Part shown: one piece after another, positions 68 to 42,573 of the stretch
How the letters are laid out: every line of letters starts with the position of its first letter
Position numbering within the stretch: position 1 is the stretch's first letter
Origin: an uncultured Cocleimonas sp.
GTDB taxonomy: Bacteria; Pseudomonadota; Gammaproteobacteria; Thiotrichales; Thiotrichaceae
Direction: 5' to 3'
DNA: 42,628 nt
NCBI RefSeq assembly: GCF_947495625.1
Contig: NZ_CANLZW010000041.1
Coordinates: 1-42,628 of the forward strand
Notes under the pieces: model-generated
What the model saw: the letters and a program-made list of their open reading frames with translations, nothing else
Database searches by the model: none
What the model was told of the DNA's origin: nothing
Program-made: the position numbers and the translations under genes

Positions 68-86
68 ATATGGGGGGGTGTCTTAA
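68..86 (-). terminator. C-run 3'-end element, copy 1 (degenerate)
   Basis: On the minus strand the transcript of the Crp/Fnr gene runs through GACACCCCCCC about 55 bp after its stop codon and then through CCATATATGG, a small self-complementary sequence. This matches the window-wide motif CACCCCCCTACTTTTA only in its C-run half. There is no clear T-run, so termination is inferred from the position and the motif family. Confidence 0.4.
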
Positions 87-2265: not shown

Positions 2266-2394
2266 CTTCGCGCAGCATAAATTCTATTTACGTTTTCAAA
2301 GTACAAAACGTAATATCATTCCGCAAAGCATAAGTTTCTTTGGTCATTTTAAATAACAAAATGAAAAGTCACTTAAAAGTAGGGGGGTGACTTA
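2266..2394 (-). repeat. Extended dispersed intergenic repeat, copy A
   Basis: About 130 bp with strong similarity to 35077-35220. Shared blocks in order are CTTCGCG(C/A)AG(C/T)ATAA then ATTCTATTTA, a variable middle, TTCCGCAAAGCATAAG, CTTTGGT(C/T)ATTTTA, and the terminal AAGTCACTTAAAAGTAGG with the G-run. A third, rearranged relative is at 33819-33953. All three end in the C-run motif and lie directly after minus-strand genes. The half-repeats CGC(A/G)AAG(C/T)ATAA occur twice within the unit. No coding capacity is seen. Confidence 0.75.
2366..2394 (-). terminator. C-run 3'-end element, copy 2
   Basis: In the minus-strand transcript of the first GGDEF gene, 23 bp after its stop codon, AAGTCAC pairs with GTGACTT (7 bp) around a loop containing CCCCCTACTTTTAA, followed by TTCATTTTG. 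It is an exact match to the motif core and the clearest outer-stem version. Confidence 0.65.
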
Positions 2395-2416
2395 GTCGTG
2401 ATTTAGTTAATGTGAA

Positions 2417-7008: not shown

Positions 7009-7080
7009 TCGGTTAGTGTTCTCTCTATCAATGACTGCGGAAGATGTTATTGTGCATTAATCAAAATGTACTCTAAAAAA

Positions 7081-7104
7081 GTGCCTTAAAGTAGGGGGGT
7101 GACT
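7081..7104 (-). terminator. C-run 3'-end element, copy 3
   Basis: The element lies 13 bp after the stop codon of the FAD/GcvT dehydrogenase. In the minus-strand transcript AGTCACCCCCCTACTTTAAG is followed by GCACTTTTTT. AGT pairs with ACT and CC with GG through a small internal loop, and six T follow directly, so this copy looks like a functional intrinsic terminator. Confidence 0.7.
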
Positions 7105-7116
7105 AATAATTCATTT

Positions 7117-10749: not shown

Positions 10750-12768
10750 ATGAAAGAACACTTTACGATAGGTATTGATACTGGCGGAACCTACACCGAT
10801 GCGGTTGTGGTTGATACCGCAAAACGCGAAATCCTCGCCAGTGCAAAATCACTCACCACACATGGTAATTTGTCTCTAGGCGTTATCAATGCCTTGAAAC
10901 AAGCGCTCGAAACGGCAGATACAGTTGCTAAAGATAAAAGTGGCAAGTCATTTGATGTTTCTGAGATCGCGTTGGTTTCACTTTCCACAACCTTGGCGAC
11001 GAATGCTCTGGTTGAGGGGCAGGGATCATCTCTTGTGGTTTTCTTGCTGGGCTTTAACGATGCAATGGCTGAACGCACTGAAATTACAAAGGCGATACCA
11101 GATGCAACAATCGTCCGGATCAATGGTGGGCATGTTTATACCGGTAAAGAACAGCAACCCTTAGATCTCGATACAATTCGAGATGCACTTAACAGTGAGA
11201 TAGGCAAAGCTGAGGCATTTGCTGTAGCAGGTCATTATTCAGTGCGTAATCAATCTCATGAAAGAGAAGCGGCTGAGTTAATCAAAGAAATCACTGGTGC
11301 GCCAGTGACAGCTTCTTGTGATCTTTCCGATTCATTGAATGGGCCAAAGCGTGCGCTAACGGCAGGATTTAATGCACAAATTGTCTCTTTAATCGTGCAA
11401 CTAGAAAGCGCGGTGCGTGAAGCCATGCAAACCCTGGGTATCAATGCTCCGATCATGATTGTGAAAGGTGATGGATCAATCGCCCGTGCTGATTCTGTGA
11501 TGTACACGCCGATAGAAACCATTTTGTCAGGTCCCGCCGCGAGTGTTATCGGGGCGCGTTATTTAACCGGTCAAAAGGACTTTCTGATTTCAGATATCGG
11601 CGGTACGACAACGGACGTGGCAACCGTTGTTGATGGCTGGCCAGCCTTGAATGAAGCGGGTGCCGATGTCGGTGGTTATCGTACTCTGGTTAAAGCCATC
11701 GATATGAAAACGCTGGGTCTGGGTGGCGACAGCGAAGTTGAAATTGACGGTTTACAAAATATAACGTTATTAGCTAATCGTGCATTGCCGTTATCAATGT
11801 TGGCGATGCGTTTCCCACATATTGAAGAAGAATTAGCCTGCGCACTCACAGCGGATAGCGGTATGCATTCGGCATTGCAGTATTTATTGTTGCAATCATC
11901 CGCTGACTCTTCTGACTTTAGCGAGCGTGAACAAGAGTTACTAGGCTTATTAAGTACCGAGAAACCAATCCCTTTTCGTGAAGTCATCGTCTCTGCCAAA
12001 GATCGCAGTACCCTAAAAAGGCTTATAAGTAGGGGGGTGATCAGAATGTCTGGCTTTACTCCAAGTGATGCGGCCCACGTATTGGGAATGCAATCACAAT
12101 GGAATACCAAGGCAGCTTTTTATGCCTGTGAATTGTTGGGTCGTGCTACGGGTTATGTGAGTAACAATAATACCGCTGAAAAGATTCAAGCCTTCGCTCA
12201 AAAAGTACATGGAGCGGTGGTTGAAAAAAGTACGCGTTTAATGATCGATCAACTCGCTGAGAAGTCATTTAATGATAATGACGTTTTGGTCAATGCGGTA
12301 GCCTCTGGGCATCCTCTTATCAAAGATTTACAGATAAAATTTGAATCACGATTACCTTTGGTGGCTGTTGGTGGTCCTGCTGGAATATTTTATCCCGATG
12401 TTGGCGATCGCCTGGGGAAAGAAGTATTAGTACCCGAATATAGTTCAGTGGCAAATGCCATTGGAGCGGCTGTCGGTCATGTGAAATCTAGCTGTATTAT
12501 AGAAGTCACTTTGCATGAAAAACATGGTTATCAGGTTCATGCACGAGATGAAGTGATTCACGCTGAATCAGCCACTAAGGCATTGGAGATCGCGACTAAA
12601 ATGTCTATTGCAGCAGTAAAACAGGATTTAATCACCAAGGGTGGGGAAGTTCAAAACGAATCTGATATCACAGTAAATATTGAGCGAGTAGAAATCCCCG
12701 ATATGGAGGACGATGCGGGTTTAATTAGTGCTAAAATTATCGCTGAATGTGAAAGTCATGCGAGCTAG
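10750..12768 (+). CDS. Hydantoinase/oxoprolinase (HyuA-like) family protein
   Basis: This 672-aa protein has the sugar-kinase-like ATPase fold of the HyuA/OxoA family. An N-terminal phosphate-binding loop (IGIDTGGTYTDAVVVD) and a second loop near residue 280 (SDIGGTTTDVATV) frame the hydantoinase_A core, with FTPSDAAHVLG in the region usual for the family. These enzymes use ATP to open or carboxylate cyclic or ketone substrates, normally with a HyuB-type partner. No hyuB is present here. The next gene, 2 bp downstream, is an exported amidohydrolase. The substrate is unknown. Oddly, codons 422-431 contain an exact copy of the window-wide C-run motif on the opposite strand without breaking the reading frame. 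The family call is firm; the reaction is open. Confidence 0.8.
   Translation: MKEHFTIGIDTGGTYTDAVVVDTAKREILASAKSLTTHGNLSLGVINALKQALETADTVAKDKSGKSFDVSEIALVSLSTTLATNALVEGQGSSLVVFLLGFNDAMAERTEITKAIPDATIVRINGGHVYTGKEQQPLDLDTIRDALNSEIGKAEAFAVAGHYSVRNQSHEREAAELIKEITGAPVTASCDLSDSLNGPKRALTAGFNAQIVSLIVQLESAVREAMQTLGINAPIMIVKGDGSIARADSVMYTPIETILSGPAASVIGARYLTGQKDFLISDIGGTTTDVATVVDGWPALNEAGADVGGYRTLVKAIDMKTLGLGGDSEVEIDGLQNITLLANRALPLSMLAMRFPHIEEELACALTADSGMHSALQYLLLQSSADSSDFSEREQELLGLLSTEKPIPFREVIVSAKDRSTLKRLISRGVIRMSGFTPSDAAHVLGMQSQWNTKAAFYACELLGRATGYVSNNNTAEKIQAFAQKVHGAVVEKSTRLMIDQLAEKSFNDNDVLVNAVASGHPLIKDLQIKFESRLPLVAVGGPAGIFYPDVGDRLGKEVLVPEYSSVANAIGAAVGHVKSSCIIEVTLHEKHGYQVHARDEVIHAESATKALEIATKMSIAAVKQDLITKGGEVQNESDITVNIERVEIPDMEDDAGLISAKIIAECESHAS
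12012..12043 (-). repeat. C-run element, copy 4, inside a coding region
   Basis: On the minus strand the sequence is CACCCCCCTACTTATAAGC followed by CTTTTT. Its first 19 bases and the T-run that follows match the element downstream of the tRNA-Glu genes (27469-27498). Here it lies antisense within the HyuA-like gene and codes in frame for KRLISRGVIR just before the family segment MSGFTPSDA. It is not at any gene end, so it is listed as a repeat rather than a terminator. Confidence 0.7.
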
Positions 12769-13710: not shown

Positions 13711-13740
13711 AAAAAAGCCCTAGAAGTAGGGGGGTGACTT
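13711..13740 (-). terminator. C-run element, copy 5, with perfect CCCTA hairpin, antisense
   Basis: On the minus strand AAGTCACCCCCCTACTTCTA is followed by GGGC and T6. CCCTA and TAGGG form a perfect 5-bp stem with a 4-nt loop, then six T: a compact intrinsic terminator. It reads opposite to both flanking plus-strand genes, so here it could only stop antisense transcripts coming from the right. Confidence 0.6.
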
Positions 13741-13826
13741 AAAACTTATCTCACTTACAAATCATTCATCTAACAAAACCAATATATTTATCTACAATCA
13801 CAAGAATTTAATTAAGAGCTAACTAC

Positions 13827-14165: not shown

Positions 14166-14180
14166 AGTAAGCTTTAAGAA

Positions 14181-14207
14181 AATATGCCCTAAAAGTGGGG
14201 GGTGATG
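14181..14207 (-). terminator. C-run 3'-end element, copy 6 (variant)
   Basis: On the minus strand CACCCCCCACTTTTAGGG is followed by CATATTTTCTT, 25 bp after the stop of the third GGDEF gene. CCC pairs with GGG around ACTTTTA. The core has lost the T of CCCTACTT but keeps position, orientation and the T-rich tail. Confidence 0.6.
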
Positions 14208-14231
14208 GTTAGTAGAGTTGTGATAACGAGA

Positions 14232-18461: not shown

Positions 18462-18522
18462 GCATGAATCTGGATATAGTATTAGTTTAGGAAATCAGTA
18501 TTTTTATAATGTGATTTGTGGA

Positions 18523-18571
18523 AAAGAGCCTAAAAGTAGGGGGGTGTCCTTTTATAATTAAAAAGACACCC
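18523..18571 (-). terminator. Composite terminator of the RraA gene with C-run element, copy 7
   Basis: Reading on the minus strand after the RraA stop, GGGTGTC and four A pair with TTTT and GACACCC (about 11 bp with one bulged base). The second arm runs directly into the C-run, CACCCCCCTACTTTTAGG, then CTCTTTT. CCTA and TAGG form a second small stem. The C-run element is therefore joined to an ordinary hairpin. Confidence 0.7.
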
Positions 18572-27454: not shown

Positions 27455-27468
27455 TCAATTATTTAAAA

Positions 27469-27498
27469 CACACCCCCCTACTTATAAGCACTTTTTTA
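27469..27498 (+). terminator. C-run 3'-end element, copy 8
   Basis: On the plus strand CACCCCCCTACTTATAAGC is followed by ACTTTTTT, 54 bp after tRNA-Glu copy 2 and in the same orientation. CTTATAAG is self-complementary and the T6 run follows. Its first 19 bases match the intragenic copy at 12012-12043. Confidence 0.65.
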
Positions 27499-33818: not shown

Positions 33819-33953
33819 TGCATAAATTCCTTTGGTCTTTTAAACAACAAAATGAGCCGAGATTTATCGAGACAAAAGCATTGCCGTATAATGTTTACCC
33901 AAAGGGAAGACGAAGTCGCATAAAAATCGCTTAAAAGTAGGGGGGTGACTTAG
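33819..33953 (-). repeat. Extended dispersed intergenic repeat, rearranged copy C
   Basis: GCATAAATTCCTTTGGTC and ACAACAAAATGA resemble blocks of copies A (2266-2394) and B (35077-35220). The internal part differs, and the unit again ends in TTAAAAGTAGG with the G-run and GTGACTTA next to a minus-strand stop codon. Confidence 0.5.
33922..33953 (-). terminator. C-run 3'-end element, copy 9
   Basis: The element lies 4 bp after the pta stop codon in the minus-strand transcript: AAGTCACCCCCCTACTTTTA then AGCGATTTTTATG. The five-T run follows a short pairing region. It is an exact match to the motif core. Confidence 0.65.
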
Positions 33954-35076: not shown

Positions 35077-35220
35077 CCTTCGCGAAGTATAAATTCTATT
35101 TAAGTCTGCTAAACGACCAAAACGAGCGAGCCTCAGCGGTAGAAATATCGTTCCGCAAAGCATAAGGTCCTTTGGTTATTTTAGACAGCGAAATAAAAAG
35201 TCACTTAAAAGTAGGGGGGC
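35077..35220 (-). repeat. Extended dispersed intergenic repeat, copy B
   Basis: About 145 bp that align with 2266-2394 through blocks at both ends, with a longer, different middle (GAGCGAGCCTCAGCGGTAG). It begins with CTTCGCGAAG, a perfect palindrome, and ends in the C-run motif, where GTGACTTA is replaced by CATTTTTATT. AAATAAAAA and TTTTTATTT flank the motif as an alternative stem. Confidence 0.75.
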
Positions 35221-35230
35221 ATTTTTATTT
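35191..35230 (-). terminator. C-run 3'-end element, copy 10
   Basis: On the minus strand TGCCCCCCTACTTTTAAG is followed by TGACTTTTTATTTC, about 60 bp after the stop of the acyl-CoA ligase gene. AAATAAAAA on the 5' side of the C-run pairs with TTTTTATTT on the 3' side, replacing the AAGTCAC stem of copy 2. Confidence 0.6.
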
Positions 35231-42465: not shown

Positions 42466-42540
42466 TTCCTTGTTAGTTTCTCTAATGAAGAATGGCTAAT
42501 ATGACTAGTAAGTTTAAAAACTGAATACTTAATTATCCAA

Positions 42541-42573
42541 ATGACACCCCCCTACTGTCCCACAGTTTACCAT
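42541..42573 (+). terminator. C-run 3'-end element, copy 11
   Basis: On the plus strand GACACCCCCCTACTGTCCCA is followed by CAGTTTACC, 76 bp after the GntR stop. The second half is replaced by a different small hairpin (ACTGT, CCC, ACAGT) followed by TT. Orientation follows the rule of the other copies. Confidence 0.55.

Follow-up and report, generated by a model that had tools for sequence, protein, structure and literature searches.

What is the function of a run of six cytosines that recurs again and again along one bacterial chromosome? The question is raised by a stretch of 42,628 nt, here called the window, on contig NZ_CANLZW010000041.1 of an uncultured Cocleimonas sp. (GCF_947495625.1). 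A sequence-only reading of the window had described eleven copies of a dispersed C6-run motif tied to gene 3' ends, and had proposed four roles: an intrinsic terminator family, a C-rich Rho-entry or RNA-protein site, a DNA uptake signal or a REP-like element. The repeat is real, and it is longer and far commoner than in that account. The window holds eight exact copies of the 11-mer GTAGGGGGGTG against 0.02 expected from shuffles, and a count over the whole genome of this Cocleimonas (4,603,868 bases in 89 contigs, 4.6 Mb) gives 438 + 346 = 784 against none for the reversed control pattern. Both the motif itself and its excess over chance are thereby borne out.

The full repeat unit of about 31 bp is AAAAGTCACCCCCCTACTTTtAGGCnnTTTTT. 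In 87 exact sites taken from 442,628 bases, its conserved span begins near −6 and ends near +25; outside these limits the information is near zero. The 5' side consists of an A-rich stretch and GT, followed by CACCCCCCTACTTT. Next come some weakly constrained positions (A/G, G, G, C/G and two that are free) and a T-tract at +21 to +25, the spacing of which from the core is fixed. Near-miss copies are scarce, as 125 exact 14-mers face 13 with a single mismatch in the first eight positions. A form of 21 bases is present in Cocleimonas flava DSM 24830 and in two uncultured Cocleimonas MAGs. A scoring matrix built on 160 exact sites, applied at a score of 10, picked out 238 elements in the own genome (842,628 bases scanned) and 160 in C. 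flava (540,000 bases scanned). Ten pieces of shuffled DNA per genome gave none. Extrapolation from these samples gives about 1,300 elements per genome in both species alike.

When the full-element matrix was run over the window with a listing cut of 3, nine places reached a score of at least 16. All copies are given below, with the strand that carries the C-run.

68..86, minus strand: doubtful copy, a C-run with CA only and without the T-tract; score below the listing cut of 3
2364..2395, minus strand: element at the end of a longer dispersed palindromic repeat; score 35.8
7076..7107, minus strand: element, altered at the aligned place in C. flava; score 48.3
12014..12045, minus strand: element, antisense within a hydantoinase-type ORF (10750-12768, 672 aa); score 29.5
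13711..13742, minus strand: element, opposite to the genes on both sides; score 42.8
14179..14210, minus strand: shortened copy of the element; score 6.9
18521..18552, minus strand: element; score 45.8
27465..27496, plus strand: element 3' of a tRNA-Glu gene; score 44.0
33922..33953, minus strand: element in a convergent spacer; score 44.6
35196..35227, minus strand: element with changed 5' side (TGCCCCCC); score 16.0
42539..42570, plus strand: element core with poor downstream half; score 19.3

The eleven copies counted earlier are therefore nine elements, one shortened form at 14179 and one doubtful C-run at 68-86. An Rfam search of the window returned three tRNAs only. The element at 2364 terminates a longer dispersed repeat with palindromic stretches (about 2230-2395). 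Similar stretches with about 76-93% identity occur at a dozen or so places in C. flava and at some in two further Cocleimonas genomes (G004 and G008); this longer repeat may be a REP- or MITE-like element bearing the motif. A gene of the small multidrug resistance family (PF00893, 13827-14165) is flanked by two copies.

In the window, seven of the nine scored copies come after the end of a gene or tRNA and in its sense. The window is a biased sample in this respect, because minus-strand genes cover 70% of its bases and plus-strand genes 16%, and even here the copy at 12014 is antisense within an ORF and that at 13711 opposes both neighbours. Larger samples, in which the genes were called by a home-made codon-score caller, show no preferred direction: in tandem spacers the C-sense runs along the genes in 59 cases and against them in 64 (own genome, 843 kb), in 34 and 42 cases in C. 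flava (540 kb), and in 134 and 147 cases when nine genomes are summed. The supposed orientation with genes is not upheld, whereas a looser association with gene ends remains, since copies are closer to gene ends than to gene starts. In the own genome convergent spacers are the densest class with 60 elements in 14.7 kb, compared with 123 in 66.8 kb of tandem and 30 in 28.1 kb of divergent spacers. Genes themselves contain few elements: 19 of 238 in the own genome, 86% of which is coding, 13 of 160 in C. flava and 42 of 581 over nine genomes.

Copies are also kept between species, as the sequence-only reading had proposed to check. A syntenic C. flava segment of 81% identity has counterparts of the window elements at 7076 (altered), 12014 and 13711. 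The last is kept although its flanks have strongly diverged, and the copy at 12014, in a coding region, falls where 26 consecutive bases are the same in C. flava. In a longer comparison, restricted to the 20 own-genome elements well inside aligned blocks, 18 have a same-strand element at the aligned place; these include 91462, for which there is no printed alignment, and 97290, with a degraded counterpart and a flank identity of 0.33. The elements at 109948 and 110819 have none at the aligned place, and near the former one lies close by, set apart by the alignment. Flank identity varies between 0.33 and 0.99 among the sites that are kept. Where flanks are well conserved the conservation of the element adds little evidence, but several copies are kept amid diverged flanks.

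The distribution of the motif was followed in 12 Cocleimonas genomes, mostly fragmented MAGs of 80-100% completeness, among which the own genome is G000 and C. flava is G003. It occurs in nine of them, in at least five dialects with a common C6 core. Exact 11-mers of the own dialect number 725 in G003, 456 in G004, 397 in G011, 235 in G008 and 77 in G007, with 0-2 in the remaining six congeners and 0-3 matches per relative outside the genus. The reversed control pattern matches 13 times in G002 and eight times in G009, which is not noise, since these matches fit the CAT-C6 dialect of those genomes. A 14-mer search with one mismatch allowed gave 146 matches in G010, mostly AAAGAGGGGGGGTG among the matches listed. 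A generic pattern (C6, T4, T4), in raw counts that include overlapping matches of single sites, was found 1486 times in G009, 1213 in G002, 586 in the own genome, 580 in G007, 543 in G004, 425 in G011, 226 in G010, 208 in G008 and 92 in G003. The motif-poor congeners G001, G005 and G006 have 13, 7 and 0 matches, and 83 genomes outside the genus have 0-9. The strict form was met in three of 369 genomes drawn from the class, with 873 matches in the own genome (raw, overlaps again included), two in G256 and one in G261, and no match was obtained among IMG/VR viral contigs. Among the genomes sampled the motif is confined to the genus Cocleimonas. The two T-tract copies in G256, which belongs to a different family of the class, are 1.8 kb apart (C7:103840 and 105618) and closely resemble the G007 dialect; they may have been transferred from Cocleimonas or stem from contamination.

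Read in the C-sense, the dialect core is GTCACCCCCCTACTTT in G000 and G003, the first bases being weak in G003, GACACCCCCCTACTTTT in G004, G008 and G011, AAAGTACACCCCCC with CTTTTT in G007, CCACCCCCCCTcTTTTTCGAtGaTTTGTA in G010, TACCCATCCCCCCCtTTTTTT in G009 and ACCCATCCCCCCTgTTTTT in G002. Each consensus is seed-led, as it was refined from seeds chosen after inspecting C-runs; the absence of any match to the dialect consensuses in Markov shuffles is not seed-led. The dialects follow a tree of ComEC (one gene from 11 genomes, two of the sequences partial; G004 has no ComEC match), in which three sister pairs, G002 with G009, G000 with G003, and G008 with G011, have support 1.0, and the members of each pair have a dialect in common. 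The motif-poor G001 and G005 are also sisters. One deeper node has support of 0.999, and the others are mostly weak (0.39-0.70). Spacers that are orthologous between genomes of different dialect were few. A k-mer search of congener samples found no comparable dispersed word in G001 and G005; in this search the G002 sample was swamped by a CTGTCCT-type tandem repeat and the G009 sample by an array, a 40-fold repeated word (L113) resembling those of the CRISPR type. The few copies that remain in G001 (contigs C110 and C121) and G005 (C16) include close inverted pairs, which in G001 make up four of the ten distinct sites listed, a small number. Their presence in motif-poor genomes would fit retention as terminators.

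Two families of bacterial repeats share much of this pattern. The uptake signal sequence (USS) of Pasteurellaceae is described as a long discontinuous unit of at most 32 nt, in which AT-rich tracts lie about two helical turns from the core; it is dispersed, forms dialects and occurs in inverted pairs serving as terminators (passages of PMC12616744). The DNA uptake sequence (DUS) of Neisseriaceae is described with hundreds to thousands of copies, dialects that track phylogeny and inverted pairs linked to terminators (passages of PMC3630211). A terminator survey of 2026 places uptake motifs in terminators of both families (in part of PMC13020248), and the traits compared here are treated also in parts of PMC7811141 and PMC1939737. 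It is the combination of copy number, layout, neutrality of direction, restriction to one genus, dialects following the tree, core and inverted pairs that matches the Cocleimonas element to USS and DUS. The element belongs to neither family, because its core is CCCCCC in every dialect, whereas that of USS is GCGG and that of DUS CTG. Furthermore, Cocleimonas is of a different gammaproteobacterial lineage from the USS carriers and has far fewer copies inside genes, and its unit of about 31 bp with tracts differs from the continuous 10-12-mer of DUS.

Among the four roles first proposed, the DNA uptake signal is the one best supported, namely by a dispersed, direction-neutral and genus-confined motif with tree-following dialects, a core plus A/T tracts and a minority of inverted pairs. 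From this comparison we lean, by a small measure, towards a candidate third and independently evolved DNA uptake sequence system that would work like DUS and USS with another core. The repeat would then be the dialect of this species in a system that, among the genomes sampled, occurs in Cocleimonas alone. A putative DNA receptor on the cell surface, most likely a type IV minor pilin, would bind double-stranded DNA with the C6 core and the adjoining A/T tracts, and competent cells would favour the import of conspecific DNA, finally via ComEC. Through biased import and then recombination the motif would come to occupy permissive sites, most of them between genes, and would stay uniform, and its preferred spelling would drift from species to species; close inverted pairs could double as terminators. 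We infer the receptor, the uptake and the drive. Among the matches listed from the open-licence literature, no such motif is described in Cocleimonas or its relatives.

Both the own genome and C. flava have ComEC and DprA genes whose frames are open. Each of these families has matches in 11 of the 12 congeners, and a PF16732 minor pilin lies above the cut-off in nine. None of these three families divides carriers from non-carriers among the 12 congeners: the motif-poor G001, G005 and G006 have all of them, although DprA is divided into two pieces in G001. The cases of missing ComEC, DprA or PF16732 are carriers with incomplete assemblies, all MAGs (G010, G004 and G008). The two partial DprA matches of G001 (C125:6122-6637 and C80:13569-13790) reflect a broken gene or a contig break. 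The receptor of DUS is ComP. A ComP receptor was considered for Cocleimonas and rejected: pilins of its family are not specific to carriers, PF16732 is found in 72 of 95 relatives, and the solved-structure relatives of the own-genome protein by sequence are general pilins (PilA, geopilin, PilE), with none named ComP among the 22 listed.

Several observations speak against uptake. The lack of a difference in machinery between carriers and non-carriers is one of them. The share of elements in genes (42 of 581) is below the 35% and 65% given for uptake sequences in N. gonorrhoeae and H. influenzae. Copies with one mismatch are few, whereas uptake sequences are described as leaving a graded footprint (both from parts of PMC1939737). 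Depletion from foreign DNA was not seen in the four gaps looked at among the 12 largest element-free ones listed, which by eye resemble ordinary operons rather than foreign DNA, and spacing is more even than random in only one of four contigs of the own genome. The largest element-free gap in the stretches examined (L077, own genome C4, 20-38 kb) holds a carboxysome-like operon, named by eye.

The same elements could serve other purposes, among them termination of transcription. A T-tract at fixed distance, as in Rho-independent terminators, and the position of seven of nine window copies behind a gene or tRNA in its sense would suit a family of intrinsic terminators with a conserved C-rich part. 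Close convergent inverted pairs, too, fold strongly, at −17 to −54 kcal/mol (14 and 5 pairs in the samples of the own genome and C. flava), and for these a role as terminators is plausible. Such pairs are a minority, 41 among 581 elements in nine genomes. Single copies have neither a hairpin nor a preferred direction: in 237 and 157 distinct elements there was no covariation between the arms and pairing was near chance in every register tested, which disagrees with the earlier view of different hairpins attached to a constant C-run, and the RNA folding energy differs from that of dinucleotide shuffles by a mean of −0.10 (n=204) and −0.20 kcal/mol (n=141). Together with random direction in tandem spacers and copies within conserved genes, this leads us to reject single copies as a terminator family, and as an account of the whole repeat we consider termination improbable. 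A C-rich Rho-entry or RNA-protein site is likewise disfavoured, because the direction relative to genes is random. Words that guide FtsK, or Chi, are read with a polarity set by replication or recombination, and in 163 of 238 copies in the own genome and 108 of 160 in C. flava the G-run does lie on whichever strand is locally richer in G. This bias is no larger than base composition predicts: the observed strand ratios are 2.17 and 2.08, compared with 2.31 and 2.6 from the intergenic G/C ratio to the eighth power, an approximate test, since one set of 20-kb pieces served both to assign the strand and to give the ratio, and other G-runs show the same lean. A replication function is therefore not required. 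FtsK and Chi words are short, unlike a mainly intergenic unit of 31 bp, and a replication- or recombination-oriented polar motif is very hard to credit.

A small mobile repeat, REP-like or other, that once spread through the genome would account for the high copy number, the intergenic position and the one longer palindromic repeat that bears the element at its end. The element also contains GTAG, a REP signature. REP elements go with RAYT proteins of the Y1 transposase family (PF01797), and the distribution of this transposase does not fit that of the motif. There are no PF01797 matches in the motif-rich C. flava, G004, G007, G008 and G011, whereas the own genome has four, and further matches occur in the carriers G002, G009 and G010 and in the non-carriers G001, G005 and G006 alike. 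Since C. flava with its 725 exact copies is without a Y1 match, and since single copies have no conserved palindrome and conservation stops at about 31 bp, the REP-like role is disfavoured and mobility is a decidedly improbable explanation. More weight is due to an intracellular DNA-binding protein with a direction-independent chromosomal site, such as a roadblock terminator, a transcription boundary at gene ends or a nucleoid-organising site, where protein and sites would have changed together into dialects. The mainly intergenic position nearer to gene ends than starts, the density in convergent spacers, the sharp consensus with few one-mismatch copies and the retention at orthologous places all agree with it. 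In addition, positional dependence in the 237 and 157 distinct elements is strongest for bases that adjoin or almost adjoin one another, as in a linear protein site. However, without a drive a genome-wide respelling of a thousand cellular sites between sister clades is harder to achieve, some conserved copies are inside genes, and no candidate protein emerged. We regard this protein site as unlikely on the whole, though it deserves serious consideration beside the uptake sequence.

Chances are about even that Cocleimonas has a third code of DNA self-recognition that evolved independently of DUS and USS and is spelled in at least five dialects in one free-living marine genus, with near-loss in some congeners and inverted pairs that also end transcription. 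Should the uptake sequence not hold, the elements could still be boundary sites of a new class, bound by a protein and independent of direction, with a thousand-odd copies that change their spelling together between species. An unrelated third case in an environmental genus would mean that the trait arises repeatedly, and the dialects, together with the congeners that are nearly without the motif, would allow the co-evolution of receptor and motif, and its loss, to be studied within a single genus.
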